From Lachnospiraceae bacterium AC2028 (GTDB lineage Bacteria; Bacillota; Clostridia; Lachnospirales; Lachnospiraceae), in the NCBI GenBank assembly GCA_000702685.1, contig JNJD01000007.1:124001-188000 (forward strand): a DNA stretch of 64,000 bases. The letters run 5' to 3'. Numbering within the stretch: position 1 is the first letter of the stretch; the number at the start of each line of letters is the position of its first letter. The translations under genes were made by a program, and so were the position numbers. Positions 983 through 20,313 of this stretch are shown in pieces. The notes below the pieces were generated by a model. The model worked only from the letters and a program-made list of their open reading frames with translations, was not told where the DNA came from and made no database searches.

Positions 983-1000
983 GGTTAGCGCTTGCTAACT
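983..1000. promoter_or_regulatory. GGTTAG-N6-CTAACC operator, flavodoxin promoter
   Basis: GGTTAGCGCTTGCTAACT, one mismatch from the 18-bp consensus shared by ten sites in this window. It lies 43 bases upstream of the flavodoxin start and just downstream of its predicted -10, a repressing position. The probable binder is one of the two DtxR-family regulators encoded at 17.2 and 20.4 kb (inference). Confidence 0.75.
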
Positions 1001-1012
1001 GGATGCTAGATA

Positions 1013-1041
1013 AACATACCATTTTGGTGGGTTTATGTCAA
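1013..1041 (-). promoter_or_regulatory. Promoter of flavodoxin
   Basis: Minus-strand TTGACA (1041-1036), a 17-base spacer, then TATGTT (1018-1013). The predicted transcription start falls beside the operator at 983-1000. Confidence 0.6.
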
Positions 1042-1137
1042 TATGTTTTTTTAGCAAAATTTTTATTTATATATACCCACAAAAATGATATGATTTTATT
1101 CAGTTAAAACCCTTTGCGGGTAATTTTTTTATCATTC

Positions 1138-1155
1138 GGTTAGCAATTGCTAACC
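1138..1155. promoter_or_regulatory. GGTTAG-N6-CTAACC operator, xylA
   Basis: A perfect copy. The full palindrome is CGGTTAGCAATTGCTAACCG at 1137-1156. It ends only 21 bases before the xylA start codon, next to the ribosome site, so a bound protein could block initiation or early elongation. Confidence 0.8.
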
Positions 1156-1176
1156 GTAAAAGAAAGAGGTGTATGT

Positions 1177-2496
1177 ATGAGTGAGTTTTTCCCAAATGTG
1201 CCCGAGATAAAGTTCGAAGGGCCTTCAAGCGAGAATCCTCTTGCATTCAAGTACTATGATGCAAAAAAAGTCATCATGGGCAAGACCATGGAAGATCATC
1301 TGAACTTCGCCATGGCATGGTGGCACAATCTCTGTGCGAACGGTGTTGACATGTTCGGAACAGGTACTGCCGACAAGAGCTTCGGTGCGGTTCCCGGAAC
1401 AATGGAGCACGCCAAGGCAAAGGTTGATGCAGGTATCGAATTCATGAAGAAGCTCGGCATCAAGTACTACTGCTTCCACGATGCGGACATCTGCCCCGAG
1501 GATCCCGATGACATAAACGAAACCAACAGAAGACTCGATGAGATAACCGACTACATCGTTGAAAAGACAAAGGGAACCGATATCAAATGTCTCTGGGCAA
1601 CCTGCAACATGTTCAGCAATCCCCGTTTCATGAACGGTGCCGCAAGCTCCAACTCCGCGGATGTATGGTGCTTCGCAGCGGCACAGGTCAAGAAGGGACT
1701 CGAGAATGCGGTCAAGCTCGGTGCGAAAGGTTATGTATTCTGGGGCGGACGTGAAGGATACGAGACTCTCCTCAATACCGATATGAAGCTTGAGCAGGAG
1801 AACATCGCAACACTCTTTACCCTTGCAAGAGATTACGGACGCAAGATCGGATTCAAAGGTGATTTCTATATTGAGCCCAAGCCGAAGGAGCCCATGAAGC
1901 ATCAGTATGATTTCGATGCCGCAACCGCTATCGGATTCCTCAGAAAGAACGGTCTCGACAAGGACTTCAGAATGAACATCGAAGCAAACCACGCAACTTT
2001 GGCAGGACATACATTCCAGCATGAGCTTCGTGTCTGCGCCGTTGAAGATATGATGGGATCCGTTGATGCGAACATGGGTGATACCCTTCTCGGATGGGAC
2101 ACCGATCAGTTCCCTACCAATGTTTACGATACAACGCTTGCAATGTATGAGATCCTGAAGGCAGGCGGATTAAGAGGCGGACTTAACTTCGACTCCAAGA
2201 ACAGACGTCCTTCCAACACACCCGAGGATATGTTCTATGCATTCATCTCCGGAATGGATGCATTTGCTCTCGGCCTCATCAAGGCAGCAGCCATCATTGA
2301 GGACGGACGAATCGATGAATTCGTAAAAGAGCGTTATTCCAGTTACTCGGACGGAATCGGCAAGAAGATCCGTGACAGAAGCATCACTCTCGAGGAAGCA
2401 GCCGCACATGCCGCAGAACTCAAGAAGCCCGCATCTCCCGGTTCGGGCAGGCAGGAGTATCTCGAGACAGTTATGAACAATATCTTATTCAGCTGA
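1177..2496 (+). CDS. xylA: Xylose isomerase
   Basis: A 439-residue class II xylose isomerase converting D-xylose to D-xylulose with divalent metals (Mn, Mg or Co). Diagnostic stretches are all present: [12 protein letters not shown] (active-site His and Asp), [16 protein letters not shown] (metal Glu and catalytic Lys), [37 protein letters not shown] (metal Asp residues) and [10 protein letters not shown]. Length matches the about 440 of E. coli XylA. I prefer the ATG at 1177 over an in-frame ATG 30 bases earlier, because AGAAAGAGG precedes it and the earlier start would overlap the operator at 1138-1155. No xylulokinase or xylose transporter is adjacent, so the gene stands alone. The operator is unusual: catabolite or XylR control would be expected for xylA. 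Confidence 0.98.
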
Positions 2497-2522
2497 TAAA
2501 CTTTTCTTCCTGTTTTTCTTCG

Positions 2523-2555
2523 AACCCCTCTGCCTGTAATGGGCGGAGGGGTTTT
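2523..2555 (+). terminator. Terminator of xylA
   Basis: Stem AACCCCTC-T-GCC / GGC-G-GAGGGGTT with a six-base loop, followed by a short T-run. It lies 27 bases past the xylA stop. Confidence 0.8.
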
Positions 2556-2597
2556 GTGTTATAATACCCATATCGAATTCTGAAAGGATGCACGGTT

Positions 2598-3353
2598 ATG
2601 AAATTCATCTCTTGGAACGTTAACGGACTCAGGGCATGCTCGGGAAAAGGCTTTGCGGATTCTTTTGCGAAGCTTGATGCGGACATATTCTGCCTTCAGG
2701 AAACAAAGCTTTCCGAAGGACAGTTTGAACTCGATCTTCCCGGATATCATCAGTACTGGAACTATGCGGAAAAGAAAGGATACTCCGGAACCGCACTCTT
2801 TACGAAAAAAGAGCCTTTGAGCGTTTCATACGGAATCGGAATTGAAGAACACGATCACGAAGGCCGTGTCATAACTGCGGAATTTGATGACTTCTACTTC
2901 ATTACGGTATATGTACCCAACTCACAAAGAGAGCTTGCAAGGCTTGATTACAGAATGAAATGGGAAGAAGCATTCCTTGCATATATACTGAAACTGGAAA
3001 AGAAAAAGCCGGTCATCTACTGCGGTGACCTCAATGTTGCGCATAATGAGATTGATCTCAAGAATCCCTCATCCAATCACCACAACGCAGGCTTCTCCGA
3101 TGAAGAAAGAGCTGCATTCGGAAAGGTTCTGGAGAGCGGATATATAGATACTTTCAGATATTTCTATCCCGACAGGAAGGACATCTATTCCTGGTGGTCC
3201 TATATGTTCCATTCAAGAGAGAACAACGCGGGATGGCGCATCGATTATTTTGTTGCGTCGAAGAAACTTGAAGACAGGCTCGTAAGTGCGGACATCCATA
3301 CCGATATAATGGGTTCCGACCACTGCCCCGTAGAGCTTGTGATCAAAGACTGA
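2598..3353 (+). CDS. exoA: Exodeoxyribonuclease III / AP endonuclease
   Basis: A 251-residue member of the ExoIII/APE1 family, which nicks abasic sites in base excision repair. Motifs in order: MKFISWNVNGLRA with Asn7, FCLQETKL with the metal-binding Glu35, CGDLNVAHNEIDL (catalytic Asp and Asn), GWRIDYF and the C-terminal GSDHCPVEL (catalytic Asp-His). Length is normal for the Gram-positive ExoA branch. AAAGGA precedes the ATG. It is a single gene between the xylA terminator and its own strong terminator. Function is secure from motifs; nothing odd was seen. Confidence 0.97.
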   Translation: MKFISWNVNGLRACSGKGFADSFAKLDADIFCLQETKLSEGQFELDLPGYHQYWNYAEKKGYSGTALFTKKEPLSVSYGIGIEEHDHEGRVITAEFDDFYFITVYVPNSQRELARLDYRMKWEEAFLAYILKLEKKKPVIYCGDLNVAHNEIDLKNPSSNHHNAGFSDEERAAFGKVLESGYIDTFRYFYPDRKDIYSWWSYMFHSRENNAGWRIDYFVASKKLEDRLVSADIHTDIMGSDHCPVELVIKD

Positions 3354-3380
3354 ATAATATAATCAGAATAAATTCTATAA

Positions 3381-3418
3381 AACGATTCCCTTACGCAGAA
3401 AGGGAATCGTTTTTTTTC
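3381..3418 (+). terminator. Terminator of exoA
   Basis: Twelve-base-pair stem AACGATTCCCTT / AAGGGAATCGTT with a short loop, then eight T residues. Confidence 0.92.
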
Positions 3419-3563
3419 TTTTCAAATCAAAAATTTATGTTAATATATCTGCGTAAGCAGGTTTTCAAATACTTTAGTTAATCAATAAATTCTAATTCTG
3501 CAGTTTCTGCTTACAAATCACGACATCAATATAAGTAACTTTGACTGTATCATTATACAATAA

Positions 3564-3592
3564 TTGACGCCCTACATTGTAGGGTATATACT
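3564..3592 (+). promoter_or_regulatory. Toxin-antitoxin promoter with palindromic operator in the spacer
   Basis: TTGACG (3564-3569), exactly 17 bases, then TATACT (3587-3592). The spacer begins with the palindrome CCCTACATTGTAGGG (3570-3584). A regulator on this site would exclude RNA polymerase. The expected binder is the helix-turn-helix antitoxin encoded as the second gene, as in other HigBA/RelBE-type autoregulated pairs (inference). Confidence 0.8.
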
Positions 3593-3609
3593 TTGAAAGG
3601 AGAATCTGC

Positions 3610-3969
3610 GTGGACGGATTGATCAGATCATTTATTGAATTACCTATATTCTCTAAACGATGGAATGAAATAGGATTAGGTGAAGAAGAGCTCCTTGCAC
3701 TTCAGATAATGTTATTAAAGGATCCTAAATCAGGTCCGGTTATGGAAGGAACCGGAGGCATACGAAAAGTCCGATTTCCTTTAGAAAACAAAGGAAAAAG
3801 CGGAAGCATACGAGTGTGTTATGCAGATTTCGAAGAATATGAAGTAACTTACCTTTTAACCGCTTTTGCTAAAAACGAAAAAGAAAACTTATCAAAAGAA
3901 GAAAAGAACGTATTAAGGAAATTGGTGAAATCACTAAAAGAAGAAGCAGCAAATAACAGGAGGCATTAA
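3610..3969 (+). CDS. RelE/HigB-type toxin of a type II toxin-antitoxin pair
   Basis: A 119-residue basic protein starting at GTG with GAAAGGAG just upstream. It has the compact RelE/HigB-like pattern: FSKRWNEIGL near the start, GGIRKVRFPL and GSIRVCYADF as central strands with basic residues, then VTYLLTAFAKNEKENLSKEEK (shortened here) with the lysine-rich end typical of COG4737 toxins. Family members are ribosome-dependent mRNA endonucleases. The XRE-type antitoxin follows after two bases, the toxin-first order seen in HigBA and NadS-linked pairs. The pair is more AT-rich than its neighbours, which suggests it was acquired. mRNA cleavage is inferred from family. Confidence 0.82.
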   Translation: MDGLIRSFIELPIFSKRWNEIGLGEEELLALQIMLLKDPKSGPVMEGTGGIRKVRFPLENKGKSGSIRVCYADFEEYEVTYLLTAFAKNEKENLSKEEKNVLRKLVKSLKEEAANNRRH

Positions 3970-3971
3970 GC

Positions 3972-4283
3972 ATGAGCAAGTTATTTGAAGATCTTAGTGA
4001 AGGTTTGCAGGAAGCAATAGAATACGAACGCGGAAACGGAAAAGCCAAAAAGACCGTTTATATAATTACGCCTATAAAAAAATATTCCAATAAAGAAATC
4101 AAAAGCATTCGCAACAAAGCCGGAATGACACAAAATACATTTGCAGATTTTATGGGCGTCTCAAAAAAAACAGTCGAGGCATGGGAATTGGGAAGAACCC
4201 ATCCTACCGGGGCCGCTTATCGCCTTTTAGAAATACTCGAACAGGGAAAAGAAAACGAACTGGATTTCGTCACAAGAATGTAA
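3972..4283 (+). CDS. XRE-family antitoxin / autoregulator
   Basis: A 103-residue protein whose C-terminal half is a helix-turn-helix: KEIKSIRNKAGMTQNTFADFMGVSKKTVEAWE is the XRE/Cro pattern with GMTQ..FA..MGVS..TV..WE (about residues 40-72). The N-terminal segment EDLSEGLQEAIEYERGNGKAKK is the usual toxin-contact region of NadS/HigA-like antitoxins. It is translationally close to the toxin (two-base gap). The palindrome in the upstream promoter (3570-3584) is the expected operator. The call is firm as an XRE antitoxin; the exact subfamily is less sure. Confidence 0.85.
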   Translation: MSKLFEDLSEGLQEAIEYERGNGKAKKTVYIITPIKKYSNKEIKSIRNKAGMTQNTFADFMGVSKKTVEAWELGRTHPTGAAYRLLEILEQGKENELDFVTRM

Positions 4284-4320
4284 AACATACCAACGTCAAT
4301 ATCAACAGGACGCCAATCCA

Positions 4321-5043
4321 TCACTCCGGCCGCCAGGGTCTTACTCCGTCTATCCAGCCGTTCGATTTCCAATATTTAAAATCCGTATACTCCGGATTGT
4401 CTTTGCCAAGGCCTGTCTGAAGCATTCTTACCATATAGAATTTTATCTTTGTAATCATTCCCGTATGCGCAGGTTTGGAATAATCTATCTTAAGCATTTT
4501 CTGTGCCAGGGAAGTCAGTTTCTTAGTCATTGCATCGCGCTTTTTCTCAGGAAGCTTGTCCCAATGAATTTCACTCATCAGTTTAAAACCGCACTTACGT
4601 ATATAGCTTATACCCCACCAGGAAAGGCTGTCCTTTATATCTTTTGCCGCCGATGATCCGCCGGCTCCAAGGCACTGAGTGATGATCACCGCACGCTTTC
4701 CGAACATTTCCTTTGCCGGACGATGCGACATCCATCTGTATCCGAAGTGATCCAGCATCGCTTTCATAGCTCCGGTTGTATGGAAAACATAGGCAGGTGA
4801 GGTAAATACCAGAAGATCTGCTTCCAGAAGGGCCTTTTCAATCTTTTGCACCGTTTCGGCATCCTTACAAAGATTCTGATATGTCAAAAAACACGCCGTG
4901 CATCCCGTGCAAAATCCCGGCCCATCCTTCGGAAGATAGAATTCCGTAATCTCCGCATTGTCCCTGAACTGTTCAAGGAAGATTTCCTTGAGCTTATACG
5001 TAACTCCTTTTTTCTCGGTTCCGTTAACGACTGTGATCTTCAT
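4321..5043 (-). CDS. Iron-sulfur flavoprotein-like NAD(P)H/FMN oxidoreductase
   Basis: A 240-residue flavodoxin-fold protein. It starts MKITVVNGTEKKGVTYKL, the FMN-reductase phosphate loop, and has FTSPAYVFHTTGAMKAMLDHF around residues 95-115 (shown here in part), typical of NADPH-dependent FMN reductases. Cysteines 45, 48, 51 and 59 make CTGCTACFLTYQNLC, which matches the compact C-x2-C-x2-C-x(4-7)-C cluster motif of archaeal and clostridial iron-sulfur flavoproteins. The C-terminal 60 residues are an extension beyond the core. It overlaps the upstream TetR gene by one base, so the two form one operon and the regulator probably senses a substrate of this enzyme. Substrate unknown. Confidence 0.82.
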   Translation of the reverse strand: MKITVVNGTEKKGVTYKLKEIFLEQFRDNAEITEFYLPKDGPGFCTGCTACFLTYQNLCKDAETVQKIEKALLEADLLVFTSPAYVFHTTGAMKAMLDHFGYRWMSHRPAKEMFGKRAVIITQCLGAGGSSAAKDIKDSLSWWGISYIRKCGFKLMSEIHWDKLPEKKRDAMTKKLTSLAQKMLKIDYSKPAHTGMITKIKFYMVRMLQTGLGKDNPEYTDFKYWKSNGWIDGVRPWRPE

Positions 5044-5702
5044 TATACATTCCTCCGGGGCTTTTTCTTAGCGGTCTTGATCGTTTTTTCATCTCTTGCA
5101 TATAACCTGTTGAACTGCCTGATGTGTGCTTCCAGTGTCTTAAGTGCCTTAGCCTCTCGCTTCGGTTCACGATCACATATCGTCAGCAGCATATAGATCG
5201 GAGCATAAAAATGTAATGTCATGATCTCAACATTCTCAGTCTGCAACACTCCGGAAGAAACCATCAGTCCGAGAAGCATCCCCTGGTATGAAAGCGGATC
5301 ATCCACATACTGTTTCATATACGCAGCTGCAAGTTCTTTGTCATGAAATTGTTCAATCGTAAGCATCTTACGAAAACGCCTTGTGTAGTCATCATGCAGG
5401 AAATACAGAAACAGATTTTTTCCGAGAATTATCAGCTGTTCTTCAGATATGTGCTTATAGATTTCCGCATCTGCCACAGCATCAGATCCGTTTATCCGTA
5501 AAGCACCGGCCTCCTCCAAAAAACGCCTGTTCATCTCTTCAATGATCGCATCAAAAATAGCCTGCTTGTTTTTAAAATGCTTGTACAGGGATGGAGCCTT
5601 GATGCCCACTCTCTCCGCAATATCAGCAACAAAAACATTTGCATATCCTTTTTCGGAAAACAATGTCAGCGCTTCATCTATTATTCTGTGCCGGGTATCC
5701 AT
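5043..5702 (-). CDS. TetR-family transcriptional regulator
   Basis: A 219-residue repressor. The N-terminal helix-turn-helix reads IIDEALTLFSEKGYANV, then DIAERVGIKAPSLYKHFKNK, the standard TetR_N signature (residues 6-48). The ligand-binding C-terminal domain is not similar to a family I can name. It is the first gene of a two-gene operon with the iron-sulfur flavoprotein-like gene. Two near-identical 16-bp palindromes lie 47-88 bases upstream, so autoregulation is very likely. The tail is lysine-rich. Confidence 0.93.
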   Translation of the reverse strand: MDTRHRIIDEALTLFSEKGYANVFVADIAERVGIKAPSLYKHFKNKQAIFDAIIEEMNRRFLEEAGALRINGSDAVADAEIYKHISEEQLIILGKNLFLYFLHDDYTRRFRKMLTIEQFHDKELAAAYMKQYVDDPLSYQGMLLGLMVSSGVLQTENVEIMTLHFYAPIYMLLTICDREPKREAKALKTLEAHIRQFNRLYARDEKTIKTAKKKPRRNV

Positions 5703-5748
5703 TTCATTTCCTCTTTATACTGCATGAGCAGTTTTTATATCACATTTG

Positions 5749-5790
5749 GCTAATTTGAATTAGCTATATTGTAAGCTAATTTCAATTAGC
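5749..5790. promoter_or_regulatory. Paired TetR operators
   Basis: GCTAATTTGAATTAGC (5749-5764) and GCTAATTTCAATTAGC (5775-5790), differing only at the centre and 26 bp apart centre to centre. Both are perfect inverted repeats apart from the middle, immediately upstream of the TetR gene. Confidence 0.85.
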
Positions 5791-5800
5791 CGTCAAGGAT

Positions 5801-5837
5801 AAAAAATGACCGGCAAAGCAAAGCCCTGCCGGTCATT
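5801..5837 (-). terminator. Terminator of the membrane protein gene
   Basis: Stem AATGACCGGCA / TGCCGGTCATT around an 11-base loop; on the minus strand it is followed by six T residues. It lies between the 5865 gene and the TetR operators and isolates the two. Confidence 0.85.
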
Positions 5838-5864
5838 GATCATTAGCATCTTTATAATCTCCTT

Positions 5865-6440
5865 TTACAAGCTTCCGATATGATTTCTTTCCCAGCCCTC
5901 CGCCGGCAGGTAATGCCATGTTTTCCGGCTGTTCTCATAGATCTCTATGAATTCGAAGAATCTGAACTGTTGTTTTGCGGCATCACCGCTTGCATTTACT
6001 TTAAATATCACATAAGAGTACTGATCATAAGTTTTCATTGAGAAATCATCAAATCCGTATTCATCCTGAATAAGCTCGATTATGTCTTCGAATTCCTCGT
6101 TAGCGAGCTCAAATGCTTCCTCGGGATCTCCGAAAATGGGTTCGCCGTACTTATTGGCTCCAATCTTCCACTGTTCATCGGACCAGTAAGTCCCCATGGA
6201 AGAAAACTCAGTATACTCTCCGACAACTCTGCCGCTTCCCGCAGGTAATCCGCGGTAAATAACAAAGTAAGGATATGAAGCCACTAACATCACAATTACA
6301 AATATCAGCATCATCGCTATAGCCGCACCTGCGGATATCTTCTTTTTCTTCAGTTTGATGATTGTAGAACCAATACCTATAAGAAGCAAAGTCAGTAGTC
6401 CGTATACCACATACGAAATTATTTGTAATTTTATCATCAT
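5865..6440 (-). CDS. Membrane protein of unknown function
   Basis: 191 residues. Two hydrophobic segments at about residues 5-27 (ISYVVYGLLTLLLIGIGSTI) and 38-62 (AIAMMLIFVIVMLVASYPYF, in part), separated by a KLKKKK cytoplasmic loop. An acidic extracytoplasmic domain of about 125 residues with several aromatic clusters follows. I do not recognise the family. AGGAG precedes the ATGATG start. A terminator follows, and the next gene upstream is over 100 bases away, so it is probably monocistronic. Confidence 0.7.
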   Translation of the reverse strand: MMIKLQIISYVVYGLLTLLLIGIGSTIIKLKKKKISAGAAIAMMLIFVIVMLVASYPYFVIYRGLPAGSGRVVGEYTEFSSMGTYWSDEQWKIGANKYGEPIFGDPEEAFELANEEFEDIIELIQDEYGFDDFSMKTYDQYSYVIFKVNASGDAAKQQFRFFEFIEIYENSRKTWHYLPAEGWERNHIGSL

Positions 6441-6546
6441 GCCGCTCCTTGTTTTCTATATCCGTTTCCTGCTTCCTATATATAGACGGAAAATCATTAA
6501 AGTGGGTCACATTCCTGTCTATAATTAGGAAAACGAATCAGATATC

Positions 6547-6864
6547 TCATTTTGCTTTCTTTGATTTCTTTTCAGGCAGTTCTGCATACATGCCTTCCAA
6601 TAATTCTACAATCAAATCCGTATCTTCAAATTTGTCGAATACGTGCATCAGCGTTTTTGACTCCTCATAAGGATAACGCAATTCCGAGTCTGAAAGAAGT
6701 CTGTCCGATGTCGGTGTTCTCTTTAAAAACACTTCATTATCGCAAATGTCACCGATCAGCTTGCCTTTAAAATACACAAGGTATCCGCCCATCATAGATT
6801 TTATGGTGATATCACCAGCTGTGGAAAAAACCTCATGTACATATTCGTTAAATTCATTCACCAT
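6547..6864 (-). CDS. TfoX N-terminal domain protein
   Basis: 105 residues that align with the TfoX/Sxy N-terminal domain. The hallmarks are a region before position 35 reading ITIKSMMGGYLVYFKGKLIGDI (in part), followed by an FLKRTP strand and a YPYEESKT segment. In gammaproteobacteria TfoX activates competence; in Firmicutes these single-domain proteins have no proven role. It ends in a KKSKKAK tail. A stand-alone accessory gene in a run of minus-strand genes; competence function is not implied. Confidence 0.8.
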   Translation of the reverse strand: MVNEFNEYVHEVFSTAGDITIKSMMGGYLVYFKGKLIGDICDNEVFLKRTPTSDRLLSDSELRYPYEESKTLMHVFDKFEDTDLIVELLEGMYAELPEKKSKKAK

Positions 6865-10074: not shown

Positions 10075-10857
10075 TTATCCAAGTGCCACATCCAGTGCCA
10101 TCATAATGCTGAAACCGACGGCGAACGCAACAACTCCCACATTCGAATGCTTTCCCGCAGACATCTCCGGAACAAGTTCCTCTACAACAACATAAAGCAT
10201 TGCGCCTGCGGCAAAAGAAAGAAGATACGGCATGGCAGGAACAACAAGTCCGACAAGCAGAACGGTCAGTCCGCCAAAAACAGGTTCCACCGCACCTGAC
10301 AGAACGCCTAATACGAATGATTTCGGCTTGCTCTTTCCCTCGGCATAAAGCGGCATTGAGATAATTGCGCCCTCGGGGAAATTCTGTATTGCGATTCCGA
10401 GTGCAAGAGCCAGTGCTCCGCCCGCAGTGATGTTTGCGGATCCGCTAAGAAGTCCGGCATATACAACACCAACAGCCATTCCTTCGGGAATATTATGGAG
10501 AGTTACCGCAAACACAAGCATCGCAACTCTGGTCAGGTGGCTCTTGGGGCCTTCAGCCTGGTTCTCCGCAACATGAAGATGAGGGATCACATGATCAAGC
10601 AGAAGCAGGAAAAGTATTCCAAACCAGAAACCGATGAATGCCGGTAAAAATGCAAGTTTTCCCTTATCGGCACACTGGTCGATCGCAGGTACTATAAGAC
10701 TCCATATGGATGCTGCAACCATCACACCCGCAGCAAACCCTGAAAGTGCCTTCTGTACATTCTCTTTCAGGTCATTTTTTAAAAAGAAAACGCATCCGGC
10801 ACCGGCCGCGGTTCCTATGAACGGTATAAGCAATCCCGATAAAACCGTATTGATCAT
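10075..10857 (-). CDS. ZIP-family divalent metal importer
   Basis: 260 residues, eight predicted membrane helices. The two ZIP metal-site motifs are present: HNIPEGMAVG (121-130) in helix IV and IQNFPEGA (157-164) in helix V. A histidine-bearing loop, HVIPHLHVAE, lies near residue 95. Family members import Zn, Fe or Mn. It is close in sequence to the ZIP half of the fusion protein at 14.6-15.9 kb, so the two are paralogues. A 26-bp palindrome containing GGTTAG-N6-CTAACC lies 44-69 bases upstream, the expected repressor site. Which metal it carries is not shown; the DtxR-like operator favours Fe or Mn. Confidence 0.93.
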   Translation of the reverse strand: MINTVLSGLLIPFIGTAAGAGCVFFLKNDLKENVQKALSGFAAGVMVAASIWSLIVPAIDQCADKGKLAFLPAFIGFWFGILFLLLLDHVIPHLHVAENQAEGPKSHLTRVAMLVFAVTLHNIPEGMAVGVVYAGLLSGSANITAGGALALALGIAIQNFPEGAIISMPLYAEGKSKPKSFVLGVLSGAVEPVFGGLTVLLVGLVVPAMPYLLSFAAGAMLYVVVEELVPEMSAGKHSNVGVVAFAVGFSIMMALDVALG

Positions 10858-10900: not shown

Positions 10901-10926
10901 ATTAGGTTAGTTATATCTAACCTAAT
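10901..10926. promoter_or_regulatory. GGTTAG-N6-CTAACC operator, ZIP transporter (longest copy)
   Basis: Arms ATTAGGTTAG (10901-10910) and CTAACCTAAT (10917-10926) are exact complements around TTATAT. The arms extend to the TTAGGTTAG half-site of the corynebacterial DtxR box, but the half-sites are six bases apart rather than one. It lies between the ZIP and ohrR genes. Confidence 0.82.
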
Positions 10927-12132: not shown

Positions 12133-13458
<1,326 letters not shown>

Positions 13459-13535
13459 TTAAATACGGAATTCCTCCTTTCATATCCGTCATAGGTTCGG
13501 ATATGAAGAAGAGGAACCCACATGATTTATTCAAC

Positions 13536-13553
13536 GGTTAGCAGTTGCTAACT
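13536..13553. promoter_or_regulatory. GGTTAG-N6-CTAACC operator, enolase side
   Basis: GGTTAGCAGTTGCTAACT, one mismatch. It lies 102 bases upstream of the enolase start codon in the eno/gpm-like divergent region. Confidence 0.75.
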
Positions 13554-13631
13554 GAAAAGATTATATTATATTGTTATTTTTTAGTCAAGGACGTATTAAT
13601 GGTATAATTATTATTATTTTATAAAATATTC

Positions 13632-13665: not shown

Positions 13666-13683
13666 GGTTAGCAATAGGTAACC
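13666..13683. promoter_or_regulatory. GGTTAG-N6-CTAACC operator, gpm-like gene
   Basis: GGTTAGCAATAGGTAACC; the right arm has one change (GTAACC). It lies directly downstream of the predicted -10 and 37 bases before the start codon. Confidence 0.7.
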
Positions 13684-13720: not shown

Positions 13721-14470
13721 ATGAAGAAATTAGTTCTGTTAAGAGACGGCGAAAGTGAATGGAATAAACTGAATCTGTATACCGGATGGGTGGATGTGGA
13801 TCTCAGCGAAAAGGGATGTAAAGACGCAAAACAGGCGGGACAGACTCTGATGAAAGAGGGGTATGATTTCGATGTCTGTTATACATCAAATCTTAAAAGA
13901 GCAATACACTCGCTGAATATAACATTGGACACCATGGACAGGGCACAGCTTCCCGTTATCAAATCGTGGAAGCTTAACGAAAGACATTACGGAGATCTGC
14001 AGGGATTGAATAAATCCGATACAGCGGTAAAATACGGAGATTACCAGGTCAAAATATGGAGAAGGTTTTATGATGTCAAACCGCCCGAGTTATACTATGT
14101 CGATGATGAAAGCGCACTGAAGCCGGCCGTATACGAAGTTTCGGATAACGCTCAGGTGAATCAATACGAAAGTCTCAAAACCGTGACAAAGAGAGTGATC
14201 CCCTACTATAAAAAAACGATCGTAAAGGATATACTTGCCGGAAAACGAGTACTCATAACAGCTCACAATAATACCCTGAGAGCACTTGTCAAGTATCTGG
14301 ACAGTCTTACCGAAGATGAGATAGTCAGCGTAAACATCCCGAATTGTGTTCCGCTTGTATATGAATTCGATGATGATATGAATGTGATCAAGCATTATTA
14401 CCTTGAGGATAAAAGGATCCTCAGGGCTAAAATGGAAGCTGTCGCAAAAGAAGGAAAAAAGAAACCGTGA
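13721..14470 (+). CDS. Phosphoglycerate mutase paralogue lacking the catalytic histidine
   Basis: 249 residues, similar along its whole length to the intact 2,3-bisphosphoglycerate-dependent mutase at 16465-17211. The RHG motif that gives the family its name reads LVLLRDGESEWN here: the phospho-accepting His is Asp (codon gac, one base from cac). The second catalytic histidine is kept, but its neighbour changes from AHGN to AHNN, and the segment after residue 120 has drifted (YEVSDNAQVNQYESL). The acid/base context NERHYGDLQG and substrate arginines IWRR remain. The ATG start is preceded by AAAGGTG. The frame is intact, so it is expressed protein, not an obvious pseudogene. It is probably catalytically dead as a mutase, or changed in function (inference). 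Confidence 0.9.
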   Translation: MKKLVLLRDGESEWNKLNLYTGWVDVDLSEKGCKDAKQAGQTLMKEGYDFDVCYTSNLKRAIHSLNITLDTMDRAQLPVIKSWKLNERHYGDLQGLNKSDTAVKYGDYQVKIWRRFYDVKPPELYYVDDESALKPAVYEVSDNAQVNQYESLKTVTKRVIPYYKKTIVKDILAGKRVLITAHNNTLRALVKYLDSLTEDEIVSVNIPNCVPLVYEFDDDMNVIKHYYLEDKRILRAKMEAVAKEGKKKP

Positions 14471-14493
14471 TCATATCTTTAACTTTCTTTTGA

Positions 14494-14511
14494 GGTTAGA
14501 TATTGCTAACC
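14494..14511. promoter_or_regulatory. GGTTAG-N6-CTAACC operator between convergent gene ends
   Basis: GGTTAGATATTGCTAACC, both arms perfect. It lies 23 bases after the gpm-like stop and 70 bases before the stop of the converging MntP-ZIP gene, so it cannot control a start of either. It is AT-rich with no T-run, so it is not a convincing terminator. Confidence 0.7.
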
Positions 14512-14580: not shown

Positions 14581-15948
14581 TCAGAAAGACTGTCCTGCCG
14601 AAAATGTAAGAATCATCATAAGACAGAAAAACACCGCAAATGCCAAGGTACCTTTATCAGAGTGCTTTTCCGTTGCCATTGACGGAATATTTTCCTCAAT
14701 AACAAGGAAAGCTATAGCCCCGCCCGTAAGTGCCATTAAAAACATGAGAAGCCCCGGGAAAGCCATCACAATAATGATCATGACTATTCCGAGGATCGGC
14801 TCGATAACACCGGAAACAACGCCCATCAAAAATGATTTTCCCTTTTCTTCTCCTCTTACCCTGATAGGATTTGAAACAAAAGCCGCTTCGGGTATGTTCT
14901 GTACCGCTATTCCTACCGTAAGTGCAAAGGCAGCCGTCAAAGTGATGCCATCGGTGCCGTTGAGAGCGCCCGCAAACAAAATACCTATAGCCATTCCCTC
15001 GGGAACATGATGTATCACCTCCGACATCATTATCTTCAGAGAATGCTTCATTTTGCTGGACGGACCCTCTTCCGCATTCAGGAATACATGTGTATGCGGT
15101 ACCGCCTTATCAAGCAGATACTGAAATCCGATTCCTATGATGAATCCCAAAGCCGCAATGTATACTTTTCCCCTGAGGATCGGAGGATAAAGGAGCGTCC
15201 ACATAGAACAGGCCATCATGATACCGCCGGCCATACCATTCATAATAAGCTTCAGATCCTGCTTGATGTCGCTTTCTGTCAAGAATACGAGAGCCGATCC
15301 GAGCACCGTTCCGACAAAAGGGATCAGCAGCCCGAACAGGACATCCCCATTGCCCATAAAATCGAGTACACCGAGATGCTCAAGCAGTATCTTGAGACCG
15401 ATAAAGACAAGAACAAATCCACCGGCCGCCTCAGCTCCGGATTTATATCTTGTTCCGAATACATTTCCTATCTTTACCCCGACAGAGGAAAATGCAAATG
15501 TCGTGACAGCTATTATCACGCATGCAAGAAAAGTATTTGCCAGAGAAGAAGCATCTATGATCACTACGGGAACCGCAACAAATGTTATTCCGACCGCGAG
15601 TGCATCTATGGACGTCGCCACAGCCAGAATGAACATTGATCTTACATCAAATCCGGTCCTTGCTTCCTCTTCTTCCGAAGAAAAAGCTTCCCTGATCATA
15701 TTCACTCCGATGACGGCAAGAAGAATGAATGCGAGCCACGGAGCAATCTTATTAATGATGAATTCGAGTTTCGATCCCAGAAGATATCCTATGAACGGCA
15801 TAAGCCCCTGAAAACAGCCAAACCATATTCCGCACAGCATCAGCTGCTTAAATCCGGCTTTCTTTGTTTCGATGCCTTTACATATTGATACGGCAAATGC
15901 GTCCATAGAAAGGCCGACTGCCAAAAGCAGCAACTCTATAATTCCCAT
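14581..15948 (-). CDS. MntP-type Mn exporter fused to a ZIP-type importer
   Basis: One uninterrupted 455-residue frame with two complete membrane domains. Residues 1-195 match MntP/DUF204 manganese exporters: VGLSMDAFAVSICKG with Asp16 and ATSIDALAVGITF with Asp115, the two conserved acidic motifs, in six helices. Residues 200-455 are a ZIP domain, beginning LLIPFVGTVLGSALVF and carrying HHVPEGMAIG (313-322) and VQNIPEAA (349-356). The ZIP half resembles the free ZIP at 10.1-10.9 kb. AGGAG supports the ATG. Net transport direction is unclear, since the parts normally move metal in opposite directions. It follows the HMA gene on the same strand after 118 bases. No GGTTAG operator was seen directly upstream. 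Confidence 0.9.
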   Translation of the reverse strand: MGIIELLLLAVGLSMDAFAVSICKGIETKKAGFKQLMLCGIWFGCFQGLMPFIGYLLGSKLEFIINKIAPWLAFILLAVIGVNMIREAFSSEEEEARTGFDVRSMFILAVATSIDALAVGITFVAVPVVIIDASSLANTFLACVIIAVTTFAFSSVGVKIGNVFGTRYKSGAEAAGGFVLVFIGLKILLEHLGVLDFMGNGDVLFGLLIPFVGTVLGSALVFLTESDIKQDLKLIMNGMAGGIMMACSMWTLLYPPILRGKVYIAALGFIIGIGFQYLLDKAVPHTHVFLNAEEGPSSKMKHSLKIMMSEVIHHVPEGMAIGILFAGALNGTDGITLTAAFALTVGIAVQNIPEAAFVSNPIRVRGEEKGKSFLMGVVSGVIEPILGIVMIIIVMAFPGLLMFLMALTGGAIAFLVIEENIPSMATEKHSDKGTLAFAVFFCLMMILTFSAGQSF

Positions 15949-16027
15949 TATGATGACTCCTAAATACGTAGTTTTATTACACTATACTACGATTCAAAGC
16001 ATCTTGCGACATTTATGCAGGCAATCT

Positions 16028-16051
16028 TCACTTAGCTTCGCTTAAGCTCAT
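16028..16051 (-). CDS. Seven-codon open frame, FeoA-start remnant or leader peptide
   Basis: ATG-initiated MSLSEAK followed by TGA, with a strong GGAGG six bases upstream. The residues look like the opening of FeoA proteins (compare MTLNDAKLG of feoA in this window). It lies between the HMA gene and the MntP-ZIP fusion. It could be a decayed feoA, a leader peptide, or chance. Confidence 0.25.
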   Translation of the reverse strand: MSLSEAK

Positions 16052-16066
16052 TTTATCCTCCACACA

Positions 16067-16441
16067 CTACACATTTTTTATCGAAACAGCGGTATATCCG
16101 AGATCATCTATCACTTTCATCAGAACGCTGTCATCGATCTCTTTTTCAAGCCTTATAACGGCTTCTCCCTTTTTTCCACGGATCTTCGCACTGACTCCGT
16201 CCATGGAATTAAGGGTATTGTGAACCCTTGCATAACAGTGTTCACAATGCATTCCGTCAATCTTTATTACCTTAGTGGAGACGACGGTTCCGAGTTTTTT
16301 GGTCTTCACCTTTACATCGCGGCTTCCTCCCCCGCAGCACGATCCCTCGCCCCTAAAATGAGAGATCGTGCTCTTTACGGAGAAAAACAAAAGAAAACCC
16401 AATATAAGGATGATTATCAGATTTGATACTATGGGGCTCAT
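16067..16441 (-). CDS. Membrane-anchored heavy-metal-associated (HMA) domain protein
   Basis: 124 residues. One membrane helix at about 6-22 is followed by a Cys-rich stretch, GEGSCCGGGSRD, the pattern of FeoB-associated Cys-rich membrane proteins. A soluble HMA domain (about 55-124) then carries IDGMHCEHCYARV, the M-x-C-x2-C metal site with Cys66 and Cys69. Such domains usually bind Cu(I), Zn or Cd and hand the ion to a transporter. No P-type ATPase is nearby. It is 23 bases after gpmA, within the DtxR-gpmA-HMA run, and precedes the MntP-ZIP gene. The partner is probably one of the transporters here (inference). Confidence 0.85.
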   Translation of the reverse strand: MSPIVSNLIIILILGFLLFFSVKSTISHFRGEGSCCGGGSRDVKVKTKKLGTVVSTKVIKIDGMHCEHCYARVHNTLNSMDGVSAKIRGKKGEAVIRLEKEIDDSVLMKVIDDLGYTAVSIKNV

Positions 16442-16464
16442 TCTTGATTCCTCTATCTATCGGA

Positions 16465-17211
16465 TCAGTTCTTCTTACCCTGATTTGCTACAGCTTCCAT
16501 CTTAGCCTTAAGAGCTTCCTGGTCGCCGAGATAATAATGTCTTATAACCTTCATATCATCATCGAATTCATATACAAGAGGCACTGCGGTGGGGATATTG
16601 ACTCCGATGATATCGTCATTCGACATATTGTCGAAGTACTTAACAAGTGCTCTGAGGGAATTACCGTGAGCTGCGATGATGACTCTCTTGCCGGCCATGA
16701 TATCCTTCTTGATCGTCTCTTCAAAATAGGGAACAACTCTTTCGATAGTTGTCTCAAGGCTCTCATTCTTGGGAAGAAGGCTCTTGTCGACATCCCTGTA
16801 CATAGCCTGCTTGGTAGCGCTTCTGTCATCGTCATCGGAAAGCTCGGGAGGCTTAACGTCGAAGGAACGTCTCCAGATCTTAACCTGGTCCTCACCGTAC
16901 TTTTCCGCAGTTTCGGATTTGTTGAGTCCCTGAAGAGCTCCGTAGTGACGCTCGTTAAGCTTCCATGACTTATTGACCGGAAGCCATGCTCTGTCCATGC
17001 TGTCGAGTGTTATATTAAGCGTATGGATGGCTCTCTTGAGATATGAGGTATAGCAGACATCGAAATCATATCCTTCATCCTTAAGAGTCTTGCCGGCAAG
17101 CTTAGCCTCTTCAACGCCTTTCTCACTGAGATCCACGTCCATCCAGCCTGTGAAAAGATTCAGCTTATTCCATTCGCTCTCGCCATGTCTTAATAAAACT
17201 AACTTTTTCAT
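16465..17211 (-). CDS. gpmA: 2,3-bisphosphoglycerate-dependent phosphoglycerate mutase
   Basis: 248 residues; interconverts 3- and 2-phosphoglycerate. It has the full active site: [17 protein letters not shown] (phospho-accepting His), [26 protein letters not shown] (acid/base Glu), [12 protein letters not shown] and [13 protein letters not shown] (second His). This form needs no metal, unlike the Mn-dependent GpmI. The ATG at 17211 has AAAAGGAG well placed; a TTG one codon before is a less likely start. It is 36 bases behind a DtxR-family regulator and 23 bases ahead of the HMA gene, in one operon under the operator at 17669. A glycolytic enzyme in a metal-regulator operon is unusual. Confidence 0.96.
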
Positions 17212-17247
17212 CAATAATCTCCTTTTTTTATTCCTGTCCGTTAATAC

Positions 17248-17637
17248 TTACAACATGCCAACGTTCTGTGCCTTGGGTTTTGATTGATAATCCATAAGAC
17301 ACCTGTAAGTCTCGTCGCTTATCGCATGCTCGATCATGCAGGCATCCGAGGAAGCGGTCTCCTCGCTGACGCCGATCTTCATAAGGATCTTGGTTATAAG
17401 AATATGCTTGCTGAGTACGTTCTCAGCGGTCTTCCTTCCCTCTTCCGAAAAAGAGATATAACCTTCTTCATCAAAGCTTATAAGACCGTCCTTGCGGAGT
17501 TTTTTCATTGCATTGCTTACGCTGGGCTTTGTTACACCGAGATATTTGGCAATGTCCACAGATCTGACATTTCCCTTTTCACGCTTTAGTATCAATATGC
17601 TTTTGAGATAATCTTCCGATGAATTCCTAAAAGTCAT
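17248..17637 (-). CDS. DtxR-family metal-dependent repressor 1 (mixed ligand set)
   Basis: 129 residues, the short form with no C-terminal SH3 domain. The winged helix reads VDIAKYLGVTKPSVSNAMKKLRKDG (28-51, in part). Metal ligands by alignment with DtxR/MntR: Asp9 (SSEDYL), where MntR has Asp8 and DtxR has Met10; His78; and Cys100, Glu103, His104 in DACMIEH, where DtxR has C102-x2-E-H and MntR has E99-x2-E-H. So it combines an MntR-like Asp with a DtxR-like Cys. An operator lies 32-49 bases upstream, consistent with autoregulation. It is the first gene of the operon that continues into gpmA and the HMA gene. Confidence 0.93.
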   Translation of the reverse strand: MTFRNSSEDYLKSILILKREKGNVRSVDIAKYLGVTKPSVSNAMKKLRKDGLISFDEEGYISFSEEGRKTAENVLSKHILITKILMKIGVSEETASSDACMIEHAISDETYRCLMDYQSKPKAQNVGML

Positions 17638-17668
17638 GTCCCGCTTCTCTCAGAAATAGTACTAACTC

Positions 17669-17686
17669 AGTTAGCAGAAACTAACC
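17669..17686. promoter_or_regulatory. GGTTAG-N6-CTAACC operator, DtxR1-gpmA-HMA operon
   Basis: AGTTAGCAGAAACTAACC, one outer mismatch. An extra CTAAC half-site lies just to the left (17662-17666). It precedes the regulator gene by 32 bases. Confidence 0.75.
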
Positions 17687-17698
17687 TATTTATAAAAC

Positions 17699-17776
17699 AA
17701 AGGGACGATCATTTTTTCAAACTGCAAGCAAATTATGAGTGGTTTAGGAGGTAAGTTTGAATGGGATCGTCCCTTT
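17699..17776. repeat. Long inverted repeat with GGGACGATC arms
   Basis: AAAGGGACGATC (17699-17710) and GATCGTCCCTTT (17765-17776) are exact complements around a 54-base interior. It sits past the end of the feoAB/Cys-rich gene run and before the DtxR1 operator. The GGGACG core recurs at 40051 and 47327. It may end the feo transcript on the minus strand. Confidence 0.65.
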
Positions 17777-17793
17777 ATTTCCGATAGAAATAA

Positions 17794-17967
17794 TTATCTT
17801 TTATCCGGAACGGATCTGCAGATATCCTTCCTCGGGCAGCTTCCGGCCATGGGGCAGCCGATGCAGTGCCTGCCTTTTTTCTTTTCCTTATAGATATAGA
17901 GGCAGGCAGCTGTAAGGCAAACCGCAAGGATGAGAATTATTATGATATTTGCAATCAATGCGTTCAT
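17794..17967 (-). CDS. FeoB-associated Cys-rich membrane protein
   Basis: 57 residues. One N-terminal membrane helix (about 4-25, NIIIILILAVCLTAACLYIY) is followed by a basic KEKKKG and a Cys-rich tail with five cysteines after residue 33: HCIGCPMAGSCPRKDIC. This is the pattern of the small proteins often encoded after feoB and thought to assist iron transfer. Its ATG shares a base with the feoB stop codon (TAATG), so translation is coupled. It is the last gene of feoA-feoB. Confidence 0.88.
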   Translation of the reverse strand: MNALIANIIIILILAVCLTAACLYIYKEKKKGRHCIGCPMAGSCPRKDICRSVPDKR

Positions 17968-19958
17968 TAACCGAGTTTGTACTCCGCAGCGATCTTTTTA
18001 TTATTGCTCTTAATGATAACAGTAATGATGGCTGCAAAGCAAATGACTGCGATAAGTCCGCCAACAAATCCGGCTCCGATCGATCCGGTAACGATGATCG
18101 TTCCGATCTGATATACGAGGAATCCTACGGTAAATCCGGTTGCAAGCTGAAGTCCTATAGCGCCCCAGAGCCACTTTGCGGATTTCATCTCGGAGTTCAT
18201 TGCACCGAGCGCCGCGAAGCAGGGAGGAGTGTAAAGGTTGAACATGAGATATGCGAGTGCTGCAACCTTGGTGATACCCATAGCCGCAGCAACGGCATTT
18301 CCTTCACCGATGAGTTCAAGCTCTTCGGTATCGATGAAATTGGTGATTGCAAAGCAGGTAGCGATTGTTCCGACAACGTTCTCTTTTGCTATAAAGCCGG
18401 TGATAGCTGCTGCGGCAAGCTGCCAGGAAACAATGCCTACGACGGGGACAAGGAGAAGTGCGAAGGGTCCTGCAACACTTGCAAGGATGGAAGTATCTTC
18501 CATTCCCTCTTCGACTACTTCGAAGTGCCAGTTGAAGGACTGCATTATCTGAACAACGGTATTACATACAAGGATGATGGTTCCTGCCTTTACAATATAT
18601 GCCTTACCGCGCTCGAGCATACTCTTGAATGCAAATCCGAGGCTGGGAACCTTATATTCCGGAAGCTCAATGATGAAGAAGCTCTTGCGGTATCTTGCGC
18701 CGGTGATGGCCTTGATAAGAAGTGCTCCCAGAAGAACAAGGATCACTCCGAGTGCGTAGCATACGAAACTTACCCATGTCGACTCGGGGAAAAATGCTCC
18801 GGCAAAGAGTGCGATGACGGGAAGCTTTGCTCCGCAAGGCATAAATGTTGCAAGCATAGCGGTGCTTCTGCGCTCTCTTTCATTCTTGATCGTACGGCAT
18901 GCCATGATCGCAGGGATTCCGCACCCCGTACCGATGATCATGGGGATGACTGATTTTCCGGAAAGACCGACCTTCTTGAATATAGGATCAAGAACAACGG
19001 TAGCTCTTGCCATGTATCCGCAGTCCTCGAGGAGTGCGATGAGAAAATACATTACCATAACGAGGGGAAGGAAACCGATAACGGCTCCTACACCTCCGAT
19101 GATACCATCGATCAGCAGTGCATAGAGCAGAGGATTTGCATCACCAAGCTGCTCTCCCGCCCACTCCTGGAATGTCTCGATCCATCCGACAAGGATATCT
19201 GCAAGCCATGTTCCCACGGTAGTCTGGCTGATATAGAATACAACAAACATTATTGCCGCGAAGATAATGATTCCGATTATGGGATTGGTAACGACCTTAT
19301 CGATCGCATCGCCCTTGGTCTTATCCTTGGTAAGAGTCTTTCTTACTTCAACATCCTTAACTACTCCGTTGACAAAATCAAATCTCTTTCTGTCCGCAGC
19401 TTCTACCGCTTCCTTACTGGAAAGATCAATGTCTCCCTGATGATAAGGAGCTTTCTGTCCCTTGCCCTCAAGGCTTGCAGCAAGAGCTACCGCCTCCTTG
19501 ATTCCCTTTTCGGAAGTGGATACGGTGTTGATGACGGGACATCCGAGCTTTTCGGCGAGAACAACTTCATTGATCTTGTTGCCCTTCTTATCATTAACAT
19601 CGCTCTTATTGAGGGCGACAACAACGGGGATTCCGAGCTCAAGGAGCTGGGTGGTGAAGAAAAGGCTTCTGCTCAGGTTTGTCGCATCGACTATGTTGAT
19701 GATGGCATCGGGATGCTCATTCTTAACATATCCGCTTGTGATGCTCTCCTCCGAAGTGAAGGGAGACATGGAATAAGCTCCGGGAAGGTCAACAGCGATA
19801 AGTTCCTTACCACTGTCGTTGTACTTTTCCTTGATCTTGCTCTCCTTCCTGTCGACGGTAACACCAGCCCAGTTACCGATCTTCTCATTTCTTCCCGTCA
19901 GCGCGTTGTACATTGTCGTCTTACCGCTGTTGGGATTTCCTGTCAGTGCAATCCTCAT
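17967..19958 (-). CDS. feoB: Ferrous iron transporter FeoB
   Basis: 663 residues. The N-terminal G domain has G1 GNPNSGKTT (7-15), the switch region IGNWAGVTVDRKE, G3 VDLPGAYSMSPFTSEE and G4 NKSD. A helical linker follows, then the polytopic transport domain with the two Gate motifs (MARATVVLDP and IPAIMACRTIKNERERR regions). FeoB moves Fe(II) across the membrane using the GTPase as a switch. It is shorter than E. coli FeoB (773), normal for Gram-positive forms. It is 30 bases behind feoA and overlaps the small Cys-rich gene. Control is by three operators upstream of feoA. Confidence 0.98.
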   Translation of the reverse strand: MRIALTGNPNSGKTTMYNALTGRNEKIGNWAGVTVDRKESKIKEKYNDSGKELIAVDLPGAYSMSPFTSEESITSGYVKNEHPDAIINIVDATNLSRSLFFTTQLLELGIPVVVALNKSDVNDKKGNKINEVVLAEKLGCPVINTVSTSEKGIKEAVALAASLEGKGQKAPYHQGDIDLSSKEAVEAADRKRFDFVNGVVKDVEVRKTLTKDKTKGDAIDKVVTNPIIGIIIFAAIMFVVFYISQTTVGTWLADILVGWIETFQEWAGEQLGDANPLLYALLIDGIIGGVGAVIGFLPLVMVMYFLIALLEDCGYMARATVVLDPIFKKVGLSGKSVIPMIIGTGCGIPAIMACRTIKNERERRSTAMLATFMPCGAKLPVIALFAGAFFPESTWVSFVCYALGVILVLLGALLIKAITGARYRKSFFIIELPEYKVPSLGFAFKSMLERGKAYIVKAGTIILVCNTVVQIMQSFNWHFEVVEEGMEDTSILASVAGPFALLLVPVVGIVSWQLAAAAITGFIAKENVVGTIATCFAITNFIDTEELELIGEGNAVAAAMGITKVAALAYLMFNLYTPPCFAALGAMNSEMKSAKWLWGAIGLQLATGFTVGFLVYQIGTIIVTGSIGAGFVGGLIAVICFAAIITVIIKSNNKKIAAEYKLG

Positions 19959-19988
19959 TTTTTAATCCTCTCTTATATAAAAATGATT

Positions 19989-20207
19989 TTAGATCTCTAT
20001 AGCTGCCGCAAGTTCGGGATCGATATTATATCTGGCATCCTTGATGGAAACGACCAGGTTTTTCTTCTTATCGACGACGGTTATGTTCTCACCGCTGTAA
20101 CATCCGAGAGTAAAAAGAAAACTTTCCATTTCCTCATCGCCATCCGTATCGATCTTCTTGATCACGTATTCGGTTCCGAGTTTTGCATCATTAAGAGTCA
20201 TATTCAT
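19989..20207 (-). CDS. feoA: FeoA, SH3-like partner of FeoB
   Basis: 72 residues with the FeoA opening TLNDAKLGTEYVIKKID, a central turn and a C-terminal VVSIKDARYNIDPELAAAIEI (in part) that resembles the ligand segment of FeoA domains. FeoA acts on FeoB in the cytoplasm. GGAGAAGGA precedes two possible ATGs (20207 and 20201); spacing does not decide between them. A consensus promoter with three operators lies upstream, divergent from DtxR2. Confidence 0.95.
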   Translation of the reverse strand: MNMTLNDAKLGTEYVIKKIDTDGDEEMESFLFTLGCYSGENITVVDKKKNLVVSIKDARYNIDPELAAAIEI

Positions 20208-20225
20208 ATCCTTCTCCGTTAAGCG

Positions 20226-20243
20226 GGTTAGCGTAATCTAACC
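20226..20243. promoter_or_regulatory. feoAB operator 1
   Basis: GGTTAGCGTAATCTAACC, perfect arms, in the feoA leader 19 bases upstream of the first ATG. Confidence 0.8.
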
Positions 20244-20259
20244 CATTGTCAAAAAGAAT

Positions 20260-20277
20260 GGTTAGCACAATCTAACC
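20260..20277. promoter_or_regulatory. feoAB operator 2
   Basis: GGTTAGCACAATCTAACC, perfect arms, beside the predicted transcription start. It begins 34 bp from operator 1 and 30 bp from operator 3, near whole numbers of helix turns. Confidence 0.8.
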
Positions 20278-20284
20278 GTCAATC

Positions 20285-20313
20285 ATTATAGTTAGCGCCA
20301 TCTAACTTGTCAA
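20285..20313 (-). promoter_or_regulatory. feoAB promoter with operator 3 filling the spacer
   Basis: Minus-strand TTGACA (20313-20308), exactly 17 bases, TATAAT (20290-20285): full consensus. The spacer holds AGTTAGCGCCATCTAACT (20290-20307), a copy of the shared palindrome, so repressor and polymerase must compete. Confidence 0.9.

Follow-up and report, generated by a model that had tools for sequence, protein, structure and literature searches.

The window analysed here is a 64,000-nucleotide stretch of the genome of Lachnospiraceae bacterium AC2028 (GCA_000702685.1, contig JNJD01000007.1, positions 124,001 to 188,000). At its start lies an island of genes for flavodoxin (fld), xylose isomerase (xylA), metal transporters, enolase (eno), two phosphoglycerate mutase homologues (gpm' and gpmA), FeoA and FeoB, and two DtxR-family proteins (DtxR1 and DtxR2), interspersed with ten copies of the 18-bp palindrome GGTTAG-N6-CTAACC (Table 1). 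The initial annotation had read these copies as sites of a DtxR-type metal regulon that includes enzymes of carbon flow. Family scans of the island also matched MarR and glutathione peroxidase, and a GpmI-family search of the genome located gpmI about 5 kb before the window.

All ten copies listed in that annotation were recovered at their exact positions. A scan of the window gave five exact matches, four with one mismatch and one with two, and the remaining 43 kb, said to be free of copies, hold just two matches, both with three mismatches. At the three-mismatch level the whole window contains 12 matches against a shuffle mean of 15; there is no enrichment at this level, and the case therefore rests on the near-exact sites. 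With up to one mismatch, nine sites were observed where a first-order Markov model predicts 0.08 (maximum one in 60 simulations), and these nine, all within the 20-kb island, are the only ones in the whole genome (2,772,364 bases in 14 contigs); a reversed-pattern control gave two matches genome-wide. The half-sites GGTTAG and CTAACC are also those of the corynebacterial DtxR box, where a single base separates them. The six-base spacing noted for the island proved to be exclusive: when N0 to N15 were compared in the window at up to one mismatch, N6 gave nine sites and N0-N5 and N7-N15, thus also N1, gave none, while in 80 loci fetched by protein N6 gave 103 matches versus 11 for all other spacings combined. 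All 20 half-sites of the ten sites have GTTA at positions 2-5, and 19 of them have G at position 6; position 1 holds G in 15 and A in five, and the central bases vary. Given its rarity under the Markov model and in the genome, the constancy of its half-sites and its restriction to the N6 spacing, we conclude that the palindrome is a real, selected dyad. Some of the genome-wide two-mismatch matches are coding sequence, namely GKTTLT codons of EF-Tu, EF-G and RF3 (proteins named by eye). A paralogue-specific second motif, GGTAAGA-N4-TCTTACC, was rejected, its two-mismatch matches being such codons in the same three proteins.

For nine of the ten sites, each placed 19 to 102 bp before the nearest gene start, the notion that the sites flank the island genes was borne out; the tenth, at 14494, is taken up below. 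The fld promoter, TTGACA-N17-TATGTT on the minus strand, is upstream of the site at 983. In 294 oriented site-gene pairs from the genus and the named loci (divergent genes count one site twice), TATAAT-like hexamers peak 13 bp before the operator (29 pairs) and TTGACA-like hexamers 36 bp before it (33 pairs). TATAAT-like hexamers peak again at +27 (30) and at -47 (17), in keeping with divergent genes and tandem operators. At xylA the operators lie 19-21 bp before the ATG (seven of the nine genes examined). By this geometry the predicted operators overlap putative -35, -10 and +1 elements, a placement typical of repressor binding, and at metal-uptake genes the site overlaps the promoter or +1, as in a DtxR-type regulon. 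Not far ahead of the operator, the xylA leaders (about 1100-1137 in the window; L074, L107 and L152) have in common a short stretch, CCC...GGGTA, that resembles a hairpin and leads into a T-rich run, perhaps a small attenuator.

Table 1. Genes, predicted operators and promoter elements of the island (positions in the window; SD, Shine-Dalgarno sequence; MFE, minimum free energy)
Feature	Coordinates	Strand	Remarks
Flavodoxin (fld)	518..940	-	TIGR01753 above cut-off
Predicted operator	983..1000		1 mismatch; 43 bp upstream of fld
Predicted operator	1138..1155		exact; ~21 bp before xylA ATG, immediately ahead of SD
Xylose isomerase (xylA)	1177..2496	+	TIGR02630 above cut-off; sole copy found in genome search
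ZIP-family metal transporter	10075..10857	-	PF02535 above cut-off
Predicted operator	10905..10922		exact; 48 bp upstream of ZIP
Enolase (eno)	12133..13434	-	TIGR01060 above cut-off; sole copy found in genome search
eno 5' leader	13435..13535	-	conserved box GAATAAATCATGT and long hairpin; MFE -27.2, z -4.9 (G000 copy, L252)
Predicted operator	13536..13553		1 mismatch; 102 bp upstream of eno, over expected +1
eno promoter	13560..13588	-	TTGACT-N17-TATAAT; ends 6 bp before operator
Predicted operator	13666..13683		1 mismatch; 38 bp upstream of gpm'
gpm', cofactor-dependent phosphoglycerate mutase (dPGM) paralogue	13721..14470	+	catalytic His to Asp (LLRDGESEWN)
Predicted operator	14494..14511		exact; gpm' and mntP-ZIP converge on it with their 3' ends
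MntP-ZIP fusion membrane protein	14581..15948	-	PF02659 above cut-off; second half ZupT-like, below model cut-off
HMA-domain membrane protein	16067..16441	-	PF00403 above cut-off
gpmA, cofactor-dependent phosphoglycerate mutase	16465..17211	-	catalytic His intact
dtxR1, DtxR family	17248..17637	-	PF01325 and PF02742 above cut-off; ligands Asp/Lys/His/Cys/Glu/His
Predicted operator	17669..17686		1 mismatch; 32 bp upstream of dtxR1
feoB	17967..19958	-	named from sequence and clustering of relatives, not from family scan
feoA (72 aa)	19989..20207	-	named from sequence and position/clustering, not from family scan
Predicted operator	20226..20243		exact; feoA-dtxR2 intergenic
Predicted operator	20260..20277		exact; feoA-dtxR2 intergenic
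Predicted operator	20290..20307		2 mismatches; fills 17-bp spacer between TTGACA and TATAAT of feoA promoter
dtxR2, DtxR family, candidate repressor	20430..20807	+	PF01325 and PF02742 above cut-off; Met9, Cys100, Glu103, His104

The palindrome is shared with relatives, occurring in 29 of the 31 genomes of the genus. Targets were assigned from the surroundings of all 166 genus sites listed (up to one mismatch, plus the two-mismatch site of the window), using a crude gene caller of our own with a start within 250 bp and family scans of cluster representatives. Counted by genomes, the targets were eno (11), ABC transporters (11), dtxR (8), feoA (8), Gpm (7), xylA (6), an NrdG-like Fer4_12 protein (6), flavodoxin (5), ZIP (5), Trep_Strep membrane proteins (5), SEC-C methionine aminopeptidase-like proteins (5) and HMA (4). 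For Gpm, the only gene reached in the window genome (G000) and in G010 was the defective gpm', which leaves five genomes where true gpmA has a site of its own; in G000 gpmA sits behind the dtxR1 operator. In G001, which is 98% complete, the four recognised targets are xylA, eno, gpmA and feoA. At L099, L105, L133 and L151 a divergent NrdG-like Fer4_12 gene and a SEC-C methionine aminopeptidase-like gene share one operator, and L099 and L133 have a nearby Fur N-terminal-like gene with an operator of its own.

The same picture emerged from the gene side. A site with up to two mismatches precedes 12 of the 14 eno genes of the genus, the nearest lying 87 to 168 bp upstream, and a site with up to one mismatch precedes seven of nine xylA genes (eight full-length and a fragment in G017); xylA of G028 has a two-mismatch site, seen only in an unoriented scan, and that of G021 has none in the upstream scan. 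As a control, none of 28 gpmI genes has an upstream site at up to three mismatches (two of 30 loci were left out for short open reading frames, ORFs). Only six of the 166 genus sites lie inside long ORFs. Together these results support a predicted metal regulon of the DtxR family, conserved across species, with eno, xylA and gpmA among its members. This part of the original proposal stood, while its link to metal supply is one that we infer.

The gpm' mutase had been called defective, and its catalytic His-to-Asp change is real, being common to G000, G006 and G010. The copies outside the window (L091:5024-5773 and L108:6407-6898) include one shortened form, in G010; the other two are full length. 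A ratio of nonsynonymous to synonymous substitution rates (dN/dS) of about 0.09 between G000 and G006, with dS near saturation, suggests that gpm' may be under some constraint. In the neighbouring ORF an MntP efflux domain is joined to a ZupT/ZIP-like importer half.

Beyond the genus, we collected dtxR2 orthologues from 80 named GTDB genomes, mostly metagenome-assembled genomes of Lachnospiraceae with some other Clostridia and three labelled Treponema/Spirochaetales. A core site lies within 400 bp upstream of dtxR2 in 49 of these 80 loci, at a density 51-fold that elsewhere in the same loci. Enolase scored above the family cut-off in 18 of the 50 genomes searched of the 80, and nine of the 14 eno genes with a located start have a site with up to two mismatches within 200 bp, one of the nine (G047) duplicating G006. 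In the genus of Butyrivibrio sp. CB08 (G082), where 44 of 79 genomes have eno above the cut-off, such a site was found within 400 bp of 26 of 40 full-length eno genes (0.94% in shuffled regions); for one of the 40 the upstream sequence is just 64 bp long, and near-identical species occur in several pairs, so that these are not 40 independent events. Twenty-five of the 26 are proper dyads, often TGTTAG-N6-CTAACA. The CB08 genome itself carries the predicted operator at eno, and similar dyads precede its dtxR2. The two-mismatch site at L374 forms no dyad and was treated as chance. The new point is that eno, in Butyrivibrio and in the window genus, carries a predicted metal-regulon operator; among the literature matches listed, neither titles nor abstract openings describe this regulon or place eno or xylA under an operator of DtxR type.

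Both dtxR1 and dtxR2 encode the helix-turn-helix domain Fe_dep_repress and Fe_dep_repr_C above the Pfam cut-offs, as expected of the DtxR/MntR family. The window proteins (125 and 129 aa, no third domain) lack a C-terminal SH3 domain and are therefore not filed as IdeR/DtxR proper, and they score 90.9 and 91.5 bits against the E. coli-type MntR equivalog NF008273, below its curated cut-off of 153. A residue alignment, from which 25 of 159 DtxR-like matches without an anchor were left out, separates three types by ligand residues: DtxR1 (Asp/Lys/His/Cys/Glu/His), whose gene adjoins gpmA or HMA; DtxR2 (Met/Glu/His/Cys/Glu/His); and DtxR3 (Asp/Glu/His/Cys/Glu/His), whose gene in the window genome lies, by eye, beside ATP-synthase genes. 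Of the 112 distinct anchored sequences, in which DtxR2 is over-represented because it served to fetch 80 loci, 88 have an iron-type primary site. DtxR1 and DtxR3 lack this site and have Asp at the Met position. The Met-Cys-Glu-His set of DtxR2 matches the iron site that PMC4805248 gives for DtxR, and P. gingivalis MntR, with the Asp-Cys-Glu-His set of DtxR3, is described as binding Mn and Fe. Of the two genus genomes without the motif, G019 (81% complete) has no DtxR that we could find and G018 has a DtxR with a changed recognition helix.

We consider it probable that small repressors of the DtxR/MntR family in Lachnospiraceae use GTTAG-N6-CTAAC as their operator and, when metal-loaded, would repress metal uptake together with eno, gpmA and xylA; the outer base is mostly G in the window genus and T, A or G in Butyrivibrio. 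Built on the observed sites, conservation, target set, promoter geometry and metal-ligand residues, this proposal would add binding, repression, an effector metal and a physiology. A metal-loaded dimer, most likely with Fe2+ on DtxR2, would bind over -35/-10/+1 and block transcription of feoAB, dtxR, the ZIP and ABC transporters, flavodoxin and, in the window lineage, also eno, gpmA and xylA; for the paralogues, Fe, Mn or both may be the signal. Under metal shortage the repressor would leave and uptake would rise. Flavodoxin could then replace ferredoxin, Mn-free GpmA could act in place of Mn-dependent GpmI, and more enolase and xylose isomerase would help to hold carbon flow. The difference in Mn need between the two mutases, already invoked in the initial annotation, agrees with PMC6684088 as far as its abstract goes.

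Several findings weigh against this proposal. The exact site at 14494, between convergent 3' ends, has no evident promoter; a relic of rearrangement or a site at an antisense promoter are options. No gene start was called within 250 bp of 36 of the 166 genus sites (the gene caller being crude), and the six ORF-internal sites are all among these. The eno genes of G003 and G004 have no upstream site with up to two mismatches, 31 of the 80 dtxR2 loci have none within 400 bp upstream, and eno lacks a site in seven of 16 cases from the named genomes (including two whose start was missed by the script and which have no core site) and, within 400 bp, in 15 of the 40 from Butyrivibrio. Repressor and operator are also not always paired as expected: the changed helix of G018 recurs in G002, which keeps one exact site, and G024 (72% complete) has three sites and no DtxR that was found. 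In G001 only the DtxR3 type was found, unlinked to the operators at eno, xylA and gpmA, so that DtxR2 cannot be the sole binder. As such DtxR3-only genomes have operators, and a one-mismatch operator precedes the DtxR3 gene itself in G007, G012 and G020, we think that the DtxR types share one operator.

Iron is most likely the effector, because feoAB and flavodoxin, which are iron-starvation genes, are targets and the Met/Cys of DtxR2 is an iron-type pair; manganese is its main rival. The same two points count against an operator of MntR/TroR-like proteins answering chiefly to manganese, in which low Mn would derepress Mn-free GpmA together with extra enolase and XylA, their divalent-metal sites being less occupied. 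We regard this version as rather unlikely, even with several facts in its favour: both window DtxR proteins have MntR PRK11050 as their best, below-cut-off match in NCBIfam, the MntR position is occupied by Asp in DtxR1 and DtxR3, a GpmI-family mutase is encoded in the genome, and MntP-ZIP is located in the island. A precedent also exists in troABCDR-gpm of T. pallidum, whose TroR is described as Mn-dependent (PMC2628430), but it is weakened by titles in the reference list of that paper that call TroR zinc-dependent and gpm semi-autonomously expressed.

That the operator belongs to another regulator (Fur, TetR or MarR) and merely lies near dtxR seems to us very improbable. Palindromes of such size also suit TetR/MarR proteins, a Fur-like gene is itself preceded by a site in three genomes, and the sole DtxR gene found in G001 is not beside an operator, but the 51-fold enrichment upstream of dtxR2 and the sites before the DtxR3 genes of G007, G012 and G020 point to DtxR. 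Fur as the binder was rejected: no Fur-family genes were found in the motif-bearing genomes G006 (91% complete, 11 sites) and G011 (80% complete, 5 sites). We give next to no credence to a functionless palindrome arisen by chance or as a spreading repeat. Every near-exact site of the genome is confined to one 20-kb stretch, a point in its favour; against this, the half-sites are nearly fixed around six variable central bases, the sites prefer certain positions relative to promoters, and in relatives they lie on several contigs at orthologous promoters.

Among known systems, corynebacterial DtxR resembles the window proteins in its iron-type Met, Cys, Glu and His ligands and in the half-site letters of its box, and differs in the spacing of these half-sites and in the SH3 domain that the window proteins lack. 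The nearest solved protein to DtxR2 is 2h09, labelled mntR, which we take to be E. coli MntR. Half-site spacing in the MntR box, AACATAGC-N4-GCTATGTT, equals that of the island sites, and the box has TAGC-N4-GCTA as its inner core. The island sites depart from this box in their outer half-site bases, the targets exceed Mn transport, and the Met and Cys of DtxR2 correspond to Asp and Glu in B. subtilis MntR. A close parallel is the T. pallidum tro operon (PMC2628430), which includes a phosphoglycerate mutase gene and has a DtxR-family repressor without an SH3-like domain and an 18-bp dyad operator over its promoter; the adjacency of dtxR1 and gpmA in the window resembles that of troR and gpm. 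In the parts of PMC2628430 drawn on here, however, tro is one operon without enolase, xylose isomerase or flavodoxin, its operator is another palindrome (the probe sequences hold TTTGATGCATCAAA-like dyads), and gpm is cited in the reference list as semi-autonomously expressed. S. aureus under Mn starvation relies on the Mn-independent mutase GpmA, in an abstract that names no DtxR operator and no enolase (PMC6684088).

The eno leaders show a further conserved feature. A box like GA(A/G)TAAATCATGTG directly follows the operator and precedes a hairpin of about 20 bp, whose stem varies in sequence between species yet folds (L248-L256, L349, L351, L391, L405 and L406). In the form GA..AARTCAT the box occurs in 27 of 66 eno 5' regions, nearly always downstream of the operator core and mostly followed by a hairpin; of the 43 regions whose operator core is perfect, 26 have the box, versus one of the other 23. 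Leaders with the box have a median folding z-score of -5.3, with 22 below -3 (26 distinct), and leaders without it a median of -1.2, with seven of 39 below -3. Single folds were used, since the hairpin arms were out of register when 18 leaders were aligned together (a consensus of only four pairs). Because related leader sequences are not independent, a second regulatory layer in the structured eno leader is a lead and not proof. Rfam gave no match in window positions 1-24000.

Enolase is usually regarded as constitutive. Its absence from about half of the sequenced Butyrivibrio strains has stood unexplained since 2010 (PMC6118326 section 10, PMC6912079 section 9, PMC11026938). In the window genus we detected eno in 14 of 31 genomes and in six of the ten high-quality ones; the eno-less genomes are only 68 to 93% complete, so that single absences are weak. 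Sixteen of the 17 eno-less genomes keep gpmI above the cut-off, which suggests that they may still make 2-phosphoglycerate; gpmI types, split by eye according to eno presence, showed no pattern. One explanation, which we put forward as speculative and on balance doubtful, is that in Butyrivibrio and its kin the classical Mg-enolase is a back-up for metal starvation: in metal-replete cells the repressor would lower eno expression while a non-homologous, probably iron-dependent enzyme converts 2-phosphoglycerate to phosphoenolpyruvate, and lineages of the Fe2+-rich rumen could lose eno and still grow. The retention of GpmI by eno-less genomes is a hint consistent with such a back-up. In a plainer reading, low iron would shift the energy supply towards glycolysis, and enolase dosage would follow.

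The predicted eno operator thus offers a regulatory clue to the puzzle of enolase loss, as it hints at when the enzyme may be wanted. It predicts a metal condition that would separate eno-plus from eno-minus strains and suggests where to look for a replacement enzyme. More broadly, the metal-sparing of glycolysis known from the use of GpmA for GpmI would be extended to enolase and xylose isomerase under one operator.

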